NCBI GenBank assembly: GCA_002343425.1
Contig: DDSO01000154.1
Location: 2,663 to 13,047 of the forward strand
Length of the DNA stretch: 10,385 bases
Origin: Brevundimonas sp. UBA2388
GTDB taxonomy: Bacteria > Pseudomonadota > Alphaproteobacteria > Caulobacterales > Caulobacteraceae
Direction of reading: 5' to 3'
The notes under the pieces are model-generated. The model saw only the letters and a list, made by a program, of their open reading frames with translations. It searched no databases and had not been told where the DNA came from. The translations under genes were made by a program, and so were the position numbers. Position 1 is the stretch's first letter. Each line of letters opens with the position of its first letter. Positions 1 to 8,002 of the stretch are shown here, in pieces.

Positions 1-428
1 TCCTGCTCCTTGATGTCCTTGACCGAGCGCGCGCCGGTCTCTTCATCCGCCTCGAACACGATCAGGCGCAGCTTGACCTTCAGCGGCGCGGCATAGGTCA
101 TGTCGCGCTGGATGCATTCCTCGACGTCGTATTTCGGGTCCTCGAACTCGTAGGAGACGTATTCGAGGATGGCGCGTTCGTTGAAGTCCTTGATCGGGAA
201 GACCGACTTGAAGACCGCCTCGATGCCCTGATCCTTGCGCGGACCGCTGCGCACTTCGCGCTGCAGGAACTGCTCATAGGAGGCGCGCTGCACCTCGATC
301 AGGTTCGGCATCTGCACCGCTTCGGGGATCCGGCCGAACGAGTGGCGGATGCGCTTCTTGCCGGTGAAGGTCGTAGCGTGTGCGAACTGGCCGTGGGCGA
401 CGGCGACTTCGGCTTTGGACTTGGCCAT
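1..428 (-). CDS. rpoB: DNA-directed RNA polymerase beta subunit, N-terminal part (runs off the left edge)
   Basis: This is the beta subunit of core RNA polymerase, a cytoplasmic enzyme. About 142 of the usual roughly 1,350-1,370 residues are in the window. The reverse-strand translation starts [18 protein letters not shown] and continues through [11 protein letters not shown], then [17 protein letters not shown], and later [30 protein letters not shown]. These are the conserved first blocks of alphaproteobacterial RpoB, at the start of the protrusion and lobe region. The start is the ATG complementary to 426-428, with a GGGAA-type ribosome-binding site about 8 bases upstream. Unlike the common arrangement, rplL is not next to it: the nearest upstream gene lies on the other strand, so rpoB must use its own promoter in the 429-820 spacer. 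No frameshift is seen in the visible part. The product call is secure. Confidence 0.97.
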
Positions 429-670
429 TCTGTATTCCCAATACACCGCCCGGGCAGGCGGCGATCAATGCAGCAGCCACGGCTCCGCCTCTCGGGCGAC
501 CCGTGACCATCGGTTTCGACGTCCACCCTCGGGCCTTTCGGCGCCAGGACGTCTGAAATTGCAGGGCTCCCTGGGAAGGAGCGCGCCTTCGCACCGGTCG
601 GAGGGCGACAAACCGGGCCTCGGCGCTTTCGCGCGCATCTCGTACTGAGTTAGCGGAACCGGGTCATATA
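429..670 (-). promoter_or_regulatory. Probable rpoB 5' leader with two GAAA-tetraloop hairpins
   Basis: This is most of the 392-bp spacer between the divergent rpoB and the gene at 821. Read in the rpoB sense, a TATATG hexamer (complement of 665-670) is a possible -10, but no good -35 stands at the right distance. Downstream are GCGC-GAAA-GCGC (623-634) and a longer hairpin with GACGTCC/GGACGTC outer arms (518-524 and 547-553) and an inner GCC-GAAA-GGC (533-542). GAAA is a stable GNRA loop only on this strand, which favours an rpoB-sense RNA structure over a plus-strand one. A leader role is inferred and the promoter is weakly supported. I see no gene in 429-820. Confidence 0.4.
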
Positions 671-820
671 CTCGCTTTGACGGCGAAATAAAGACCGGTT
701 CGGCAGTTTTCGGGATTGACCTTCGACCTGACGTGGGAGGTACCTTCAGATTGTTCGAGGTTCACGGAAAAACCAAATGTTGAATGGCGGGCGATCGGCG
801 CATCACCGGGACGCGGAGTC

Positions 821-1666
821 GTGAGCCGCCCGGCTTTGATGCTGGCCGTGGGACTCATCCTTCTGGCCTCGGCTGCCTCGGCCCAGCAGACGCTCGAGCA
901 GACGCCGACCACGCGCGGCCGGGTTCGGGACACCACCACCCTGCTCGCTGCACAGGACGCTGCGACCCGGGCCGGCGCCGACTGCGCGGTCTCCGCCGCC
1001 GCCCTCCGCGGCATGGACAGCTTTGGCGACCGCCAATACGAGGTCGTCTGCCGCGACGGGCCGGGCTATCTGATCATCGACGGGATCAGCCCCGCCGCAC
1101 ACAGCTGCCTGCTTCTGGCGAGCCAGAGTGACCGGTTCCAGCGCGGAGAGCCGTCGAGCCGCCCGGCTCCGGCCTGTGTTCTCCGCGCCAATCGAAATCC
1201 GATCCGGCATTTTGAGTCCATCGCCGCCCGGGCGGGCATGGACTGTCGGGTCGATGAGGGCCGGGTCGTCGGCCTCTCCCCGGCGGGCAACACGATCTAT
1301 GAGATTGGCTGTCGCCGGGCGCCCGGGAGCTGGGTCGAAGAGGCGGCAGGCGCATGGGTCGTCACCGACTGCCTTGATATCCGGACCCGGGGCGACCTGT
1401 GCCGGTTCACCACCGAGCCGGAAGAACTCGCCGGCTTCCGCCCACGGCTGGCCGGAAGCGCCGCCGAGGCCTGCGCACCGACCCGGGTGCGCGACATGGG
1501 GCGCAATGCGGCGGGACTCACCTGGTACGAGCTGACCTGTGCGGGGGGCGCGCCTGTCGTCGTCAGCATGGACGACGGAGGCCGGGTCACGAATGTCCTT
1601 TCATGCACGGACGCGGCTCATATCGGCGACGGTTGCCGGACCGAGGTTCCCGCGCCTCAACGGTGA
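821..1666 (+). CDS. Secreted protein of three four-cysteine repeats, function unknown
   Basis: I do not recognise a named family. The GTG start at 821 is chosen because it gives a standard signal peptide: Arg3, a hydrophobic core at residues 6-17 and an ASA|QQ cleavage site after residue 21. An upstream in-frame TTG at 716 would place 35 non-signal-like residues before it, so it is less likely. The mature part holds three repeats of about 75-87 residues with cysteines at 55/77/96/119, 142/164/184/194 and 218/240/262/272. The first two cysteines are exactly 22 residues apart in every copy. A Tyr-Glu pair always stands four residues before the second (Y73, Y160, Y236). Twelve cysteines in an exported protein suggest up to six disulfides, probably one pair of bridges per repeat. 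The only ribosome-binding candidate, GGAG at 815-818, sits unusually close to the GTG, so the start is moderately sure. It lies 72 bp upstream of the FKBP gene and may be co-transcribed with it. Confidence 0.8.
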   Translation: MSRPALMLAVGLILLASAASAQQTLEQTPTTRGRVRDTTTLLAAQDAATRAGADCAVSAAALRGMDSFGDRQYEVVCRDGPGYLIIDGISPAAHSCLLLASQSDRFQRGEPSSRPAPACVLRANRNPIRHFESIAARAGMDCRVDEGRVVGLSPAGNTIYEIGCRRAPGSWVEEAAGAWVVTDCLDIRTRGDLCRFTTEPEELAGFRPRLAGSAAEACAPTRVRDMGRNAAGLTWYELTCAGGAPVVVSMDDGGRVTNVLSCTDAAHIGDGCRTEVPAPQR

Positions 1667-1738
1667 ATGTTCGACGTCCCCGACAGACCGGATCCCAGCC
1701 GTATTCCTCAACGGTCCCGCCCCTGCTAGCGTCGCCTA

Positions 1739-2248
1739 ATGACCCGCACCCTCCTGATCGCCGCCGCCGCCCTGTCCCTCGCCGCCTGCGCCACCGCGCA
1801 GGAGCCCGCGCCCGCCGCCACGCCCGGAGTCGGCACGCTGGAAGGCTGGGCCGCCGGCAATGCACAATATCTGGTCGTCAACGGCGCCCGCCGCGGCTGG
1901 ACCACCACCGAATCGGGTTTGCAATACCGCCGCGTGGGCCGGGCCCATCCGAACGGCCGCCAGCCGGTCGCCACGGACACCGTCAAGGTCCACTACCGCG
2001 GCACCTTCGTCGACGGTCGCGAGTTCGACAGTTCGTACAGCCGCAATGAACCGGCCGAATTCCCGCTCAACCGGGTCATCCGCGGCTGGACCGAGGGCGT
2101 GGCCCTGATGCGGGAGGGCGAGACGTTCGAGTTCGTCATCCCCGCCGCGCTCGGCTACGGCGAACGCTGGGTCGGCGGCGGCGAACTGCCGCCCAGCTCC
2201 ACCCTGCTGTTCACGGTGGAACTGCTGGAAGTGAAGCCGGCGTCCTGA
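1739..2248 (+). CDS. FKBP-type peptidyl-prolyl cis-trans isomerase, lipoprotein
   Basis: The product is predicted to catalyse cis-trans isomerisation of Xaa-Pro bonds in exported proteins. The 169-residue sequence starts with a short signal peptide ending in a lipobox (LAAC, Cys17), so it should be lipid-anchored on the periplasmic side of a membrane. Ala at position 18 is compatible with transfer to the outer membrane. After a linker rich in Ala and Pro, one FKBP domain fills residues about 57-166. Residues corresponding to the FKBP12 active site are present: Y86, F96 and D97 in the DGREFDSS block, V113-I114 and W117 in VIRGWTEG, Y140 in LGYGER, and F158 near the end. The domain therefore looks catalytically intact. 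No ribosome-binding site is obvious, so initiation may be leaderless or coupled to the upstream gene. A long inverted repeat begins 8 bases after the stop. Neighbouring secreted M61 peptidases suggest a shared role in envelope protein quality control, which is inference. Confidence 0.93.
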   Translation: MTRTLLIAAAALSLAACATAQEPAPAATPGVGTLEGWAAGNAQYLVVNGARRGWTTTESGLQYRRVGRAHPNGRQPVATDTVKVHYRGTFVDGREFDSSYSRNEPAEFPLNRVIRGWTEGVALMREGETFEFVIPAALGYGERWVGGGELPPSSTLLFTVELLEVKPAS

Positions 2249-2255
2249 TTCTCCC

Positions 2256-2425
2256 CTTTCGTCATCCTCCGGCGAGCGAAGCGAGACCGGGGGACCCGGC
2301 GGCGCCGCGACGGCGGCGAAGCACTGCTGTGTCGATGATTGGCGCTCCCGACAGGTTCGCGCTCACGCGCGCCGCCGGGTCCCCCGGTCAGCGCCGCTGC
2401 GCGGCTTGCCGGAGGATGACGAAAG
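2256..2425. repeat. 170-bp long imperfect palindrome (REP/MITE-like intergenic element)
   Basis: Two arms are reverse complements of each other. The outer 18 bp (2256-2273 and 2408-2425) match perfectly, and so do 20 inner bp (2286-2305 and 2369-2388). Between these blocks the arms differ: the left carries a short GAGCGAAGCGAG-type segment and the right a longer one with its own GCCGC-GCA-GCGGC hairpin. The centre (2306-2368) is unpaired and non-coding. It has no transposase, and I see no obvious flanking target duplication. It starts 8 bp after the FKBP stop, so a transcript crossing it would fold strongly and could stop or stabilise the upstream mRNA. The shape fits the dispersed palindromic repeats common in high-GC alphaproteobacteria; copy number cannot be judged from one window. 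Confidence 0.85.
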
Positions 2426-2504
2426 CAGGAGGGCTATCCCCTGTGCTGGAGCCTTCCGAAACCCGAACATGACAGCCTTTTAATGCGGCGCGTTCCTGTC
2501 CAGC

Positions 2505-2533
2505 TTGACCCATGCCTGCGCGCGGCGTGATCT
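2505..2533 (+). promoter_or_regulatory. Possible promoter for the M61 peptidase pair
   Basis: A TTGACC hexamer at 2505-2510 is a good -35 match. A weak TGATCT follows after 17 bases (2528-2533), about 30 bp before the first peptidase ATG. The -10 match is poor, so this is tentative. It is offered because the palindromic element upstream probably separates these genes from the FKBP transcript. I see no gene between 2426 and 2564. Confidence 0.3.
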
Positions 2534-2564
2534 GCGACCGCCCCCCGACCGAGAGTCTCCCGAC

Positions 2565-4520
2565 ATGATGCGCCCCGCCGTCCGCCTGTTCGTCACGTCC
2601 TGCGCCGCCGCCCTCCTCCTCGGCGCCGCGCCCTCGGTCGCACAGGTCGGCACGCCCGCTCTCGACCGCGCCCTCGTCCCCATCCCGGCCCCGCGCGACG
2701 CCCCCTACCCCGGCCTCATCACCCTGGACATGGACGCCACCGACATCGACCGGCGCATCGTCTCGGTGCGGCAGACCATTCCCGTCGCCGGCCCCGGCCC
2801 GCTGGTCCTGCTCTATCCGCAGTGGATCCCCGGCAATCACGGCCCGGTCGGCCCGGTCGATGACATCGCCGACCTCCAGATCACCGCCAATGGCCAGACC
2901 CTGCGCTGGGTCCGCAATACGGTCCGCACCAATGCCTTCCAGGTCGAGGTTCCGGCCGGCGCTTCCTCCGTCGAGGTCGCCTTCAAATGGCTGACCCCCA
3001 TCGACGGCTCCCAGGGGCGGGTCGTCATCACCGACGAGATGCTCAACATCCAGTGGGAAAAGGCCATCCTCTATCCGGCCGGCTACTATTCCCGCCAGAT
3101 CACGGTCCAGCCGACCCTGCGCCTGCCCGCCGGCTGGCAGTATGGGGCAGCGCTCGACACCACATCATTCCAGAACGGCTTGGCCGTCTTCGCTCCCATC
3201 ACCCTGGAGCATCTGGCCGACAGCCCGGTCTTCGCCGGGGCCCATTACCGCCAGATCGACCTCGATCCGGGCGGCCGGTCGCCGGTACGGCTGAACATCG
3301 TCGCCGACGATCCCGACATGCTCGCCGCGACCGACGCGCACATCGAACTGCACCGCAATCTGGTCGATCAGGCCGACTATTTGTACGGCGCGCGCCACTT
3401 CAACCACTACGACTTCCTCGTCGCCGTCAGCGACCGCCTGGGCGGCATCGGGCTGGAGCATCACCGCTCGTCGGAGAACAGCGTCGACACCGCCTATTTC
3501 ACCGCCCCGGCCTCGACCCTCGCGGACCGCGACCTGCTGGGCCACGAATACGTCCACTCCTGGAACGGCAAATGGCGTCGCCCCGCCGACCAGCTGACGC
3601 CGACACTCAACGAGCCGCTGCAGAACTCCCTGCTCTGGGTCTATGAGGGCCAGACCCAGTACTACGGCCTGGTCCTGACCGCCCGCGCCGGCCTGATGTC
3701 GAAACAGCAGGCGCTCGACATCCTCGCCAACACCGCCGCCAGCTATGCCGGGGACAACCCCGGTCGGGCATGGCGCGCCATGCAGGACACCACCAACGAT
3801 CCGATCATCGCCCGGCGTCAGCCCCAGCCCTGGAGCAGCTTCCAGCGCTCCGAGGACTATTATCGCGAAGGGGCCATGATCTGGCTCGACGCCGACACCC
3901 TGATCCGGGAGCAGTCAAACGGTCGCCGGTCGCTCGATGACTTCGCCAGGGCCTTCTTCGGCGTGCAGGACGGAAACTGGGATCCGGCCCCCTACACCTT
4001 CGACGACGTGACCTCGACGCTGAACGGGGTCCAGGCCAACGACTGGGCTGCCTTCCTGCGCGCGCGGCTCGACGCCGTCGGCCCCGATGCGCAGACGCCG
4101 CTGGGCGGTCTCGAGCGCGGCGGCTACCGCCTGGCCTGGAGCACGACCCCCAATGCCTACAGCCGCGCCCTCAACGCCGAACTTGGTCGGGTCGACTTCC
4201 AGTATTCACTGGGCCTCAGCCTCAACACCTCCAACCGCGTCACCGCCGTCCGGTGGGGCTCGCCCGCCTTCGAAGCCGGCCTGACCTCGGGCTGGGACGT
4301 CGTCGCCGTCAACGGCCGCGCCGCAACCGCCGCGACGATCGCCGAGGCCATCACCGCCTCCGCCGGCAACACCACCCCGATCGAGATGATGCTGACGAAG
4401 GGCGACCGCTTCCGCACCATCCGCTTCGCGTACCACGGCGGCCTGCGCTATCCGCGCCTCGAACGCATCGCGGGAACCCCCGACCGTCTCGGCGACATTC
4501 TCGCCCCCCGCCGCCGTTGA
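2565..4520 (+). CDS. M61 family zinc metallopeptidase with PDZ domain, secreted (paralogue 1)
   Basis: The 651-residue protein is predicted to be an exported zinc aminopeptidase of MEROPS family M61, typified by the glycyl aminopeptidase of Sphingomonas. A signal peptide covers residues 1-26 (Arg3 and Arg7, hydrophobic core, PSVA|QVG). A beta-rich M61 N-terminal domain follows, then the catalytic domain with conserved GGIGLEHHRSSEN (293-305), the zinc motif HEYVH (H327, catalytic E328, H331) and the likely third ligand E361 in WVYEGQTQYYG. A PDZ domain occupies about 545-635 and starts with FQYSLGL. All expected catalytic residues are present. The ATG at 2565 (or the adjacent one at 2568) is preferred because it begins a normal signal peptide; the only upstream in-frame candidate, a TTG at 2505, would add 20 non-signal-like residues. 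The stop is 14 bp before the paralogous second peptidase, so the two form an operon. The physiological substrate is unknown. Confidence 0.94.
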   Translation: MMRPAVRLFVTSCAAALLLGAAPSVAQVGTPALDRALVPIPAPRDAPYPGLITLDMDATDIDRRIVSVRQTIPVAGPGPLVLLYPQWIPGNHGPVGPVDDIADLQITANGQTLRWVRNTVRTNAFQVEVPAGASSVEVAFKWLTPIDGSQGRVVITDEMLNIQWEKAILYPAGYYSRQITVQPTLRLPAGWQYGAALDTTSFQNGLAVFAPITLEHLADSPVFAGAHYRQIDLDPGGRSPVRLNIVADDPDMLAATDAHIELHRNLVDQADYLYGARHFNHYDFLVAVSDRLGGIGLEHHRSSENSVDTAYFTAPASTLADRDLLGHEYVHSWNGKWRRPADQLTPTLNEPLQNSLLWVYEGQTQYYGLVLTARAGLMSKQQALDILANTAASYAGDNPGRAWRAMQDTTNDPIIARRQPQPWSSFQRSEDYYREGAMIWLDADTLIREQSNGRRSLDDFARAFFGVQDGNWDPAPYTFDDVTSTLNGVQANDWAAFLRARLDAVGPDAQTPLGGLERGGYRLAWSTTPNAYSRALNAELGRVDFQYSLGLSLNTSNRVTAVRWGSPAFEAGLTSGWDVVAVNGRAATAATIAEAITASAGNTTPIEMMLTKGDRFRTIRFAYHGGLRYPRLERIAGTPDRLGDILAPRRR

Positions 4521-4534
4521 TCGTGAGGGACCCG

Positions 4535-6499
4535 ATGATGATCCGCACCGCCGCCCTCGCCCTGCTCCTGACCTCCGCCGCCCTGCCGGCGCTGGCGCAA
4601 GTTCCGGCCTCACAAGCCGCGACGCCCCTGCCCGCCCCGACCAGCCTGCCGCACGCCTTGCCGCCGATCCCCGCGCCGCAGGACCGCGACTATCCGGGCG
4701 TCATCGGCATCCGCGTTGACCTGACCGACCTCGACCACAAGGTCATCCGCGTGCGCCAGACGGTGCCGGTCAGCGCCGGTCATCTGGTGCTGCAGTATCC
4801 GAAATTCATTCCCGGCAACCACGCCGACACCGGTCCGATCCAGCTGGTCTCCGGCGTCACCGTCACGGGCAATGGCCGGCGGATCGAATGGGTGCGCGAC
4901 ACCGTCGATCCCCACGCCTTCCACCTCGACATCCCGGCTGGCGTGAACGAGATCGAGGTCGCATTCGAATGGCTGACCCAGCCTGACAACGCCGTCTGGC
5001 GCGTGGTCATGACGCCCGAGATGGTCAATCTCCAGTGGGAGAAGGCCCTGCTCTATCCGGCGGGCTACAACCACGACCGCATCACCTTCGCCCCGTCCGT
5101 GGTCCTGCCGACGGGCTGGCAGTACGGCGTGGCGCTGGACACCGTCTCCCGCGAGGGCGACGTCGCGACCTTCGCCCCGATCTCTCTGGAGCATCTGGCC
5201 GACAGCCCGATGTTCGCGGGGGCCCACTACCGCCGCGTCGACATCGATCCGGGCGGCCGCTCGCCGGTGCATCTGAATCTCGTGGGCGACACCGCCGCCT
5301 CGGTGAACATCACGCCCGAGTGGGTCGCCCGCTATGAATCCCTCGTCGACCAGGCCGACCGGCTGTTCGGCGCCCGCCACTACGACCGCTATGAATTCCT
5401 GCTGGCCCTGACCTCGAAGATGGGCGGCATCGGCCTGGAGCATCACCGCTCGTCCGAGAACACCGCCGCCCCCAACTACTTCTCCAGCGCCAGCCCGTCC
5501 TACGGGACGCGCGTCCTGCTGCCGCACGAGTACGTCCACAGCTGGAACGGCAAATACCGCCGGCCGTCGGATGAATACGTCCAGAACCTCAACATCCCGA
5601 CCCAGAACACCCTGATGTGGGTCTATGAGGGCCAGACCCAGTACTGGGGCGACGTCCTCACCCCCCGCTCGGGACTCGGCACGGTCGAGGAGGCCGTCGT
5701 CAACCTTGCCGGAGTGGCCGGCTTCTACGACCAGCAGCCCGGCCGCCAGTGGCGCGCCCTGCAGGACACCACCAACCACAACCTGCTCGGCTACCGCACC
5801 AGCAATCCTTGGCCGTCATGGATGCGCGGCACCGGCGACTACTACCGCGAGGCCCTGCTGATCTGGCTCGACGCCGACACCCTGATCCGCGAGGCCACCA
5901 ACGAGCGCAAGTCGCTCGATGACTTCGCGAGAGCCTTCTACGGCGTCGAGGACGGCGTCTGGGAGGCCCGGCCCTATACGTTCGAGGACGTGGTCTCTCA
6001 CCTGAACGCCGTCCATCCCCATGACTGGGCGACCTTCCTGCGCACACGCCTCGACGCCGTCGGCCCCGACGCCGAGGCCCCGCTGGCCGGGATCGAACGC
6101 GCCGGCTGGCGGCTGACATACGTCGACGAGCTGACGCCGCTCGAAAAGCGGATGAACAGCGGCTGGGCCAATGACTTCCAGTATTCCCTCGGCTTCAGCC
6201 TCGGCGCAGGCGGACGCATCGGCGGCGTGGTCTGGGGCAGCCCGGCCTTCGAACAGGGGCTGGGCGCCGGCTGGGATCTGGTCGCCGTCGGCGACCGCGT
6301 CGGCTCGGCCGAGGCCCTGCGCGACGCCGTCACGGCGGCAAAGGGCGGGACCGAGCCGATCGCCCTCGTGGTCAGGCGCGGCGACGAATTCCGCACCCTG
6401 TCGTTCGCGTATCACGATGGCCTGCGCTACCCGCGCCTCGTCCGCATCGAGGGAACCCGCGACCGTCTGGCCGACATCTTCGCCCCGCGGCGGCGCTGA
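4535..6499 (+). CDS. M61 family zinc metallopeptidase with PDZ domain, secreted (paralogue 2)
   Basis: This 654-residue protein has the same layout as its upstream neighbour: signal peptide 1-21 (ALPALA|QVP), M61 N-terminal domain, GGIGLEHHRSSEN (297-309), HEYVH zinc motif (H331, E332, H335), likely third ligand E365 in WVYEGQTQYWG, and a PDZ domain at about 548-638. By eye well over half of the residues match paralogue 1, including the shared C-terminal LRYPRL and APRRR ending, so the pair arose by tandem duplication. A GAGGG ribosome-binding site at 4525-4529 decides the ATG at 4535 and lies in the 14-bp gap after the first gene. Both active sites are intact, so neither copy looks decayed. 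Differences include Tyr to Trp after the third zinc ligand and an altered loop before the zinc motif, which could change specificity. Its stop is only 7 bp from the stop of the convergent lipoprotein gene. Confidence 0.94.
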   Translation: MMIRTAALALLLTSAALPALAQVPASQAATPLPAPTSLPHALPPIPAPQDRDYPGVIGIRVDLTDLDHKVIRVRQTVPVSAGHLVLQYPKFIPGNHADTGPIQLVSGVTVTGNGRRIEWVRDTVDPHAFHLDIPAGVNEIEVAFEWLTQPDNAVWRVVMTPEMVNLQWEKALLYPAGYNHDRITFAPSVVLPTGWQYGVALDTVSREGDVATFAPISLEHLADSPMFAGAHYRRVDIDPGGRSPVHLNLVGDTAASVNITPEWVARYESLVDQADRLFGARHYDRYEFLLALTSKMGGIGLEHHRSSENTAAPNYFSSASPSYGTRVLLPHEYVHSWNGKYRRPSDEYVQNLNIPTQNTLMWVYEGQTQYWGDVLTPRSGLGTVEEAVVNLAGVAGFYDQQPGRQWRALQDTTNHNLLGYRTSNPWPSWMRGTGDYYREALLIWLDADTLIREATNERKSLDDFARAFYGVEDGVWEARPYTFEDVVSHLNAVHPHDWATFLRTRLDAVGPDAEAPLAGIERAGWRLTYVDELTPLEKRMNSGWANDFQYSLGFSLGAGGRIGGVVWGSPAFEQGLGAGWDLVAVGDRVGSAEALRDAVTAAKGGTEPIALVVRRGDEFRTLSFAYHDGLRYPRLVRIEGTRDRLADIFAPRRR

Positions 6500-6506
6500 C
6501 GCGGCC

Positions 6507-6908
6507 TCAGTAGCCCAGATCGGAGCAGATCTGCGGCTTGGGCGTATTGCGAAGTTCCGCCGTCAGGGCCGAGCAGCGGGTCGAAGCCTCCGCCCGCGGC
6601 AAGGCCTGCAACGTCCACTTCAGGTCGCGCAGTTCGGTGCGCAGTGCGGCATGGTCCACGGTCCGGCCTCTCCGCTCCTCGCAGATCGCCATGTCGGCCT
6701 TGAGGCTGGCCAGTTCCAGGCAGGACAGCGACAGATCGGCCATGATCTGTCGCGCCTTCGGCCCCGTGATCGGTAATTCGGGGGTGGGCGGGACCGGCGG
6801 TCCGGCTGGCGGCGGCGGAGCCGGCGGCTCCCGGCCTCCAGCGAAATCTTCACAGGCGGCCAGCCCCAGCAAGGCGGCGATAGCGATGGCGGTGGTCCTG
6901 ATCGGCAT
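6507..6908 (-). CDS. Small proline-rich lipoprotein with four C-terminal cysteines, function unknown
   Basis: I do not recognise this 133-residue protein. The N-terminus is a lipoprotein signal: Arg4, a hydrophobic stretch at 7-18 and lipobox LAAC with Cys19. Residues 28-46 are a Pro/Ala/Gly-rich linker with a run of four prolines, probably a spacer from the membrane. The C-terminal part (50-133) looks mostly helical and has Cys63, Cys76, Cys112 and Cys128, which could form two disulfides in the periplasm. The ATG start is supported by a strong AGGGG site a few bases upstream. It follows rplL on the same strand, but the rplL terminator lies between them, so it probably has its own promoter or depends on readthrough. 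Its 3' end faces the second M61 peptidase across 7 bp, so the two transcripts are likely to overlap. Coding status is supported by the lipobox, the ribosome-binding site and the tight fit between neighbours. Confidence 0.82.
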   Translation of the reverse strand: MPIRTTAIAIAALLGLAACEDFAGGREPPAPPPPAGPPVPPTPELPITGPKARQIMADLSLSCLELASLKADMAICEERRGRTVDHAALRTELRDLKWTLQALPRAEASTRCSALTAELRNTPKPQICSDLGY

Positions 6909-6967
6909 GGGTCCCCTCCCGTTGGCGGCTCATCCCGACACAACCGGCCCATCCTGTCCAATCCGGG

Positions 6968-7004
6968 CAAAAGAAAACGGGCCGGAGATCGCTCCCCGGC
7001 CCGT
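6968..7004 (-). terminator. Intrinsic terminator of the rplJ-rplL operon
   Basis: Read on the minus strand, a GC-rich stem of 9 perfect pairs (6996-7004 with 6977-6985) can be extended through GAG/CTC around an ATCG loop. A TTTTCTTTT tract follows. It ends about 30 bp after the rplL stop and is a textbook Rho-independent terminator. A second small palindrome (GTCCC-GA-GGGAC, 7013-7024) lies between it and the stop codon. This is the main evidence that rplJ-rplL transcription ends here rather than continuing toward rpoB. Confidence 0.88.
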
Positions 7005-7033
7005 CCAGAACTGTCCCGAGGGACGGTCCGTTC

Positions 7034-7420
7034 TTACTTGACCTGCACCTTGGCGCCGGCTTCCGTCAGCTTCTTGGCGACTTCGTCGGCGGCCTGCTTG
7101 GAGACGTTCTCGACGACGTTCTGCGGAGCGCCTTCGACCAGGTCCTTGGCTTCCTTCAGACCCAGGTCCGAACGAACGCCGCGGACTTCCTTGATGACGT
7201 TGATCTTCTTGTCGCCGCCGTCGATCAGGACGACGGTGAACTCGGTCTGCTCTTCAGCAGCTTCGGCGGGCGCGCCGCCGCCGCCGCCGGCGGGCATGGC
7301 CATGGCGACCGGAGCAGCGGCGCTGACGCCCCACTTCTCTTCCAGCAGCTTGGACAGTTCGGCGGCTTCCAGAACGGTCAGTTTCGACAGGTCTTCAACG
7401 ATTTTGGCGAGATCGGCCAT
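7034..7420 (-). CDS. rplL: 50S ribosomal protein L7/L12
   Basis: L7/L12 forms the dimers of the ribosomal stalk that recruit and stimulate translational GTPases such as EF-Tu, EF-G and IF2. The 128-residue product has the three expected parts. The N-terminal dimerisation helices (1-32, starting [22 protein letters not shown]) bind L10. A flexible Ala/Gly-rich hinge with a run of five glycines follows (33-58). The C-terminal factor-binding domain (59-128) carries INVIKEVR and [17 protein letters not shown]. Length is normal. The start has an AAGGA-type site about 10 bases upstream. It follows rplJ after 66 bp on the same strand, so L10 and L7/L12 are co-transcribed, as is usual. An intrinsic terminator lies just downstream, and rpoB is not the next gene. 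Confidence 0.98.
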
Positions 7421-7486
7421 GGTGTGTTTCCTTCGGAGGATTGGGTTTCAGTAGAGAGTTTGCAGAGATGAAAGAGGCGGGTCCGC

Positions 7487-8002
7487 TTACGCGGCGTCCT
7501 TGGCGGCATAGGCGCTGAACACGCGGGCCAGTTGGGACGCCGGGGCTTGCACGACGCCGGCGACCTTGGTCGCGGGAGCGTTGAGCAGGCCGAGCAGCGA
7601 GGCGCGGATCTGGTCCAGCGAGGGCAGTTTGGACAGAACGCCCACGCCCGCTGCATCCAGAACCTTGTCACCCATGAAGCCGCCGAGGACGATGAACTTG
7701 TCATTGGCCTTGGCGTATTCAGCGGTGATCTTGGCGGCCGTCACAGCATCGTCAGCGTAAGCAATGCCCACGGGACCCTTGAACAGGCCGTGGTATTCGC
7801 TGCCTTCAGCGGCGTCGAGCGCCTTGAGCGCCAGGCGGTTCTTGACCACCTTGAACGTGCCGCCGGCAGTACGCAGGCGTCCACGCAGGTCTTCCATATC
7901 CGCAACGGTCAGACCCAGGTTGTGGGTCACGACCACGGCGCCCGCGTCGGCGAAAACGCCCTTCAGCGTTTCGATCGACTCGGCTTTTTGTGCGCGGTCC
8001 AT
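7487..8002 (-). CDS. rplJ: 50S ribosomal protein L10
   Basis: L10 anchors L7/L12 dimers to 23S rRNA at the base of the ribosomal stalk, and in many bacteria the L10-L12 complex represses its own mRNA. The 171-residue sequence begins MDRAQKAESIETLKGVF and contains the family blocks VVVTHNLGLTVADMEDLRGRLR, FKVVKNRLALKAL and GPVGIAYADD. A helical C-terminus rich in Ala and Leu (about 130-171) is where L7/L12 dimers bind. Length is typical. The ATG complementary to 8000-8002 has a TGGAG site upstream. It is the first gene of its transcript, because the next gene upstream is divergent and neither rplK nor rplA is present beside it. The long leader and promoter at 8003-8302 probably carry its regulation. 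Confidence 0.97.
   Translation of the reverse strand: MDRAQKAESIETLKGVFADAGAVVVTHNLGLTVADMEDLRGRLRTAGGTFKVVKNRLALKALDAAEGSEYHGLFKGPVGIAYADDAVTAAKITAEYAKANDKFIVLGGFMGDKVLDAAGVGVLSKLPSLDQIRASLLGLLNAPATKVAGVVQAPASQLARVFSAYAAKDAA

Follow-up and report, generated by a model that had tools for sequence, protein, structure and literature searches.

The stretch of DNA analysed here (the window) spans 10,385 nucleotides of Brevundimonas sp. UBA2388 (contig DDSO01000154.1, positions 2,663 to 13,047, forward strand) and carries an open reading frame (ORF) for an exported-looking protein, P0001, in which a four-cysteine domain occurs three times (Table 1). The three-repeat gene is real and conserved. P0001 and its orthologue in Brevundimonas denitrificans (L042; L096 duplicates this record) are 83% identical, with 31, 20, and 73 differences at codon positions 1, 2, and 3, and a dN of 0.093, a dS of 0.405, and a dN/dS of 0.23 indicate purifying selection. 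Many long spurious ORFs are expected in high-G+C DNA, and the frame might on that ground be no real gene, or its pattern accidental; however, purifying selection, full-length orthologues, and family-wide conservation of the domain already refute this explanation, to which we give virtually no credence. The GTG start fits, since the B. denitrificans orthologue has an ATG at the same position (821) and the majority of its closer aligned homologues begin at or adjoining it, some being annotated longer.

Residues 1–21 of P0001, ending in ASA, resemble a Sec signal peptide. A simple script, not a trained predictor, found a hydrophobic stretch with an AxA-like site after it in 58/60, 119/120, and 120/120 of the listed family members, and a lipobox-like site in none of the 300 listed. 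From the near-invariant cysteines and the signal-like N-terminus we infer, on good grounds, that P0001 is a disulfide-rich periplasmic protein.

Table 1. Features of the repeat gene and its neighbours in the window
Feature	Position	Strand	Basis and remarks
ORF of three-domain exported-looking protein (P0001)	821..1666	+	281 aa, GTG start, stop included
Signal-peptide-like N-terminus, residues 1–21, likely cut after A19-S20-A21	821..883	+	Sequence and script scan of family members
Linker, residues 22–39, probably mostly disordered	884..937	+	pLDDT <50 at residues 21–35
Domain 1, residues 40–125, Cys 55/77/96/119	938..1195	+	Profile comparison; predicted helix 38–50, strands 57–65, 71–77, 83–87, 92–95, helix 96–107
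Domain 2, residues 127–201, Cys 142/164/184/194	1199..1423	+	Profile comparison; predicted helix 127–137, strands 144–152, 158–164, 167–175, 178–183, helix 184–189
Domain 3, residues 204–276, Cys 218/240/262/272	1430..1648	+	Profile comparison; predicted helix 199–210, strands 220–228, 234–240, 246–250, 256–261
FKBP-type prolyl isomerase gene	1739..2248	+	72 bases downstream of the repeat ORF, co-directional; PF00254, E 3.1e-28
5' part of rpoB	3..428	-	Divergent from the repeat ORF; matches residues 1–142 of B. denitrificans rpoB at 99% identity

The twelve cysteines in the translation of 821–1666 form three sets of four (C1–C4). A preliminary description of the window, made from its letters, had noticed that C1 and C2 lie exactly 22 residues apart in all three copies, that a Tyr-Glu pair (YE) stands at -4/-3 before C2 in each (YEVVC, YEIGC, and YELTC), and that copies 2 and 3 have their C3 and C4 10 residues apart, all of which the translation confirms; the C3–C4 spacing in copy 1 is 23. 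Its judgement that such regularity is hard to obtain by chance also stood, as three matches to C-x17-YExxC never arose in 20,000 shuffles of residues 23–281 (maximum one). The spacing of 22 alone is weak evidence, since three cysteine pairs so spaced were reached in 160 of the 20,000 shuffles; spacing plus YE is strong evidence of repeats, and it is on this combination that the earlier claim rests. Profiles of the single repeats, built from 60 proteins (P0001 and 59 homologues), were aligned with one another at E 1.3e-12 and a probability of 97.7% for repeats 1 and 2, at E 1.2e-6 and 90.8% for repeats 1 and 3, and at E 3.6e-4 and only 36.8% for repeats 2 and 3, the weakest pair. Judged by these profiles, the three repeats are homologous. 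All 12 cysteine columns of the 60-protein alignment hold cysteine in every residue-bearing row, except one row each at positions 77 and 218: P0036 has Tyr at position 77, and P0058, a fragment of 210 aa that has gaps in later cysteine columns, carries a changed residue opposite C218.

The AlphaFold2 model of P0001, computed from 99 sequences, has a mean pLDDT of 86.5 and a pTM of 0.76. Strands 1 and 2 lie at +2 to +10 and +16 to +22 from C1 in all three repeats, and two further strands follow in each, with limits that vary by a few residues. Repeat 2 modelled alone from 38 domain sequences gave a helix, four strands, and a helix with a pLDDT of 89.5. The domain is thus predicted to comprise about 75 residues arranged as a helix, a four-stranded antiparallel sheet, and a helix. 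Segments that failed to superpose would have spoken against the repeats as first described; the model predicts the same order of elements in all three, with strands 1 and 2 in exact C1 register, a comparison of the order and register of secondary structure. After Sec export, two disulfides would form in each domain. C1–C2 is the likely first pair, since both lie at one edge of the sheet, C1 ahead of strand 1 and C2 at the end of strand 2. C3–C4 is the likely second, since C3 comes after strand 4 and C4 is in the segment preceding the next domain, where the bond would stiffen the domain junctions.

The preliminary description had recognized no named domain and suggested that the module may be undescribed, which holds for the libraries searched (Pfam, NCBIfam, and PDB), where no described family was matched. 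P0001 has no Pfam or NCBIfam match and no PDB chain at E<=10, and the domain profile reached at best E 0.26 against PDB. Seven relatives gave chance-level matches only (best E 0.23 in Pfam and 0.12 in NCBIfam), 38 single domains reached at best E 0.14 in Pfam, seven five-repeat proteins E 0.019 in Pfam, and five proteins E 0.07 in PHROGs. The viral fold library yielded no match at E<=0.001, with TM scores (query) of about 0.1–0.2. A beta-propeller was suggested by many Foldseek matches with TM (query) about 0.15 and rmsd 12–21, which were set aside as probably local and blade-like; in the P0001 model, helices lie between the sheets. The absence of other folds from the structural match lists is no evidence for a new fold. 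Csx3, indicated by PADLOC, was likewise not accepted. The protein of L024 matched at E 4.7e-4 and four other proteins, including P0001, had no match; among ten long proteins, the best E values were 8e-5 to 0.0024 in four, 0.049 in one, and none in five. The matches cover at most 75/286 or 50/183 profile positions, around the third repeat of some five-repeat proteins, and the four proteins with E <0.01 belong to the group nearest L024 (at least 70% identity) and so are not independent. No Csx3-type family was found in Pfam at E<=1 for P0185, P0191, or P0243.

That the element is a module, as first proposed, is borne out by its occurrence once, three, or five times in different proteins. Besides P0001, the same genome encodes another protein with three repeats (332 aa) and two with a single repeat (183 and 159 aa), and proteins of 443–453 aa with five repeats and about 20 cysteines occur in other genera and in two relatives within the genus (L012 and L015). 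Protein searches, in which scoring was confined to the approximately 8,000 candidates with the most words in common, gave homologue lists of 59 of 59, the best 120 of 602, and the best 120 of 685; among the 299 homologues so listed, 177 have three domains, 120 have five, and two have two, counts that do not amount to a census. P0002, which shares 99% identity with P0001, was excluded from this set. In the genome of the window, two single-domain paralogues lie in tandem (L003 640–1191 and 1462–1941, both minus strand) and have a common N-terminal (R/E)EMNRGR stretch. In L045 (7890–8662), a metagenome bin, the matches to the repeat gene fall in two frames, as a broken or misread gene would give. 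The first-repeat matches in three broadly named bins (L050 7965–8090, L051 7737–8006, and L052 160–282) start late in the profile, and a Gly/Ser-rich stretch lies before or after YExxC.

Across the 1,135 domains of the 299 homologues, cysteine occupies 1134/1134 aligned rows at C1, 1134/1135 at C2, 1134/1134 at C3, and 1049/1049 at C4. Among the 1,095 unique domains, a changed cysteine occurs in one (P0036), the Glu of YE, which lies in strand 2, is present in 99%, one Gly in 95%, and no other residue apart from Gly and Cys is more than 74% conserved. In the 1,015 unique domains with all four cysteines aligned, the C1–C2 spacing is 22 in 565, 21 in 366, 23 in 59, 20 in 20, and 27 in 5, so that the exact value of 22 is not universal in the family. 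Since nearly no cysteine is changed (in window-type proteins only in P0036 and P0058), the pairing of disulfides is not derivable from co-loss. Four almost invariant cysteines per domain would also suit a metal-binding or redox protein, with the cysteines as ligands or active thiols. However, P0001 contains no CxxC, the three successive cysteine spacings in the family, among the commonest values listed, range over 20–27, 18–30, and 9–24 with modes of 22, 22, and 10, the protein looks exported to a compartment where structural disulfides are the norm, and a metallothionein match arose in just one protein out of seven, at E 0.52; we consider such a function improbable.

The search of proteomes with a domain profile that had been proposed at the outset found the domain near-universally in the family. 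Profile A5 matched 195/199 sampled genomes of the family, in 22/22 genera, and 180/181 of those of good quality; the four without a match are G1076, G1098, and G1107 (completeness 63, 85, and 71%) and G1130 (99%). Matching genomes carry 2 to 15 domain matches, five being most common outside the genus of the window. At E<=0.001, 61/299 genomes of an order-wide sample and 11/398 of a phylum-wide sample matched, all matching genomes belonging to the same family; kinship was shown for 20 non-matching genomes in each sample, the other 218 (order) and 367 (phylum) being without it. Among the named records with matches are Brevundimonas and Caulobacter, from which we infer that this family is Caulobacteraceae. 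The earlier profile A2, used with a cut-off of E<=0.01, matched 5/289 genomes class-wide, three in the genus and two weakly and partially elsewhere, and 27/120 order-wide, including two weak ones from outside the family. The four weak partial matches outside the family (G095 and G050 order-wide, G163 and G202 class-wide; E 0.003–0.01) are not among the A5 matches of the order and phylum samples, in which they may or may not have been included. In the named collection, 7/12 loci bear Caulobacterales names and five (L045 and L050–L053) bear only broad ones (bacterium, Proteobacteria, Alphaproteobacteria). A few relatives may therefore lie beyond the family. On present sampling, the domain is apparently restricted to the family.

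The order rpoB, repeat gene, FKBP-type isomerase gene is also found in B. denitrificans (L042) and L097. In 14/17 loci of relatives (L054, L056–L060, and L062–L069, not L055, L061, or L070), including 5/5 from other genera, the repeat gene adjoins and is divergent from a metallo-beta-lactamase-fold hydrolase gene, and in 8/12 loci of the genus a gene read from its sequence as exonuclease III-like follows. The hydrolase-adjoining locus is probably ancestral, and the hydrolase gene is present in none of the ten loci picked for closeness to the window copy. Some match is present in 120 of 121 genomes of the genus, and identity above 80% is found only in the own genome and two others, one of which (G429) is B. 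denitrificans by its identity with L042; the window copy is therefore a lineage-specific, relocated paralogue of the copy that stands beside the metallo-hydrolase gene in most of the relatives compared. In hhalign comparisons, repeats 1, 2, and 3 of the window pair best with repeats 1, 2, and 3 of other three-repeat proteins, and window repeat 1 pairs best with repeat 1 of five-repeat proteins. In L054 (6494–9405, genome G007) the metallo-hydrolase gene has a repeat gene on either side, an arrangement that suggests local duplication at the ancestral locus.

Further along the window lie a tandem pair of M61 glycyl aminopeptidase genes with about 55% identity to each other (2565–4520 and 4535–6499, plus strand) and a small lipoprotein-like ORF of 133 aa (6507–6908, minus strand) with no Pfam match at E<=0.001. 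With tblastn no counterpart of this ORF was found in the B. denitrificans locus, where a gene of 241 aa stands instead (L042, 13514–14236). The interval between rplJ and rpoB (window 1–8002) measures 3.6 to 8.6 kb between matches in 8/8 genomes of the genus with both on one contig (the own genome G000, G405, G406, G106, G411, G412, G413, and G414; in five more, one match is missing or the two lie on separate contigs) and 0.6 to 2.2 kb in 8/8 genomes of other families of the order.

Taken together, we lean somewhat towards reading the gene as a paralogue encoding an exported tandem protein, in which three copies of an apparently family-restricted, undescribed disulfide domain form a passive multivalent binder in the envelope. 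The array would act as a rigid multivalent binder of a periplasmic envelope protein or polymer, passive binding being most likely because no conserved catalytic set is evident beyond the cysteines, Gly, and the glutamate of YE. The observation in the preliminary description is thereby confirmed and the kind of protein it proposed is supported; new to it are a near-universal, apparently family-limited module of one to five copies per protein and the relocated paralogue held by the window. Protease inhibition, taken up below, and polymer binding are the main rivals to passive binding as we describe it. Repeats that bind cell-surface peptidoglycan or polysaccharide would agree with tandem rigid domains of variable copy number, which suit avidity, with lectins and sialidases among the structural matches, and with the source label of the homologue P0191, 'uncharacterized protein YgiM (DUF1202 family)'; we nevertheless rate this specific role as rather unlikely.

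As regards the origin of the domain, we tentatively suggest, with less confidence than the passive binder, that a new disulfide-stapled superfamily arose at the base of Caulobacteraceae as a near-obligatory envelope component, commonly with five domains, and was duplicated and trimmed to three or one in Brevundimonas. If true, it would be an overlooked hallmark part of the Caulobacter cell envelope. The domain is near-universal in a family that includes the model genus Caulobacter, yet the searched family libraries contain no entry for it. An exported-looking protein that is limited to one lineage and near-universal there makes a good candidate for a family-specific trait, and Caulobacter lends itself readily to manipulation. 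Related proteins with one, three, and five copies also provide a test case for the growth and shrinkage of tandem disulfide domains.

No paper on the four-cysteine family was found in the PMC open-licence literature, in which no search by C. crescentus locus tag was made. The signature proteins of the Caulobacterales (Gupta and Mok, 2007; PMC2241609) are similar in being hypothetical proteins limited to the lineage around Caulobacter. However, those in Table 5 of that paper, compared here by their description, are shared with Oceanicaulis and Maricaulis, whereas the four-cysteine family has no match outside one family at E<=0.001 in the order and phylum samples.

Among known domains, PepSY (PF03413) and YpmB, which is one of the weak structural matches, resemble the four-cysteine domain in its predicted helix-then-strands order and a YEV-like strand. 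PepSY was suggested by these likenesses and rejected on profile comparison: hhalign against 11 PepSY stretches from relatives gave a probability of 0.4–0.5%, none of the 11 contains cysteine, and no Pfam match was found for P0001 at E<=10 and no PepSY match at E<=1 in 38 single domains. The cystatin topology is a helix on an antiparallel four-stranded sheet, and the inhibitory loop of cystatins has the motif QxVxG. It is conceivable, with about the same low probability as polymer binding, that each domain is a cystatin-like grip blocking an envelope peptidase, the nearby M61 peptidases being possible targets; the QxVxG motif is absent from P0001, as read in its translation. Cystatin-like (grip) domains such as Adhirons/affimers and SQAPI align with the modelled four-cysteine domain over 55 to 62 residues at rmsd 2.8–3.6, and a helix packed on an antiparallel four-stranded sheet is predicted for the latter as well.
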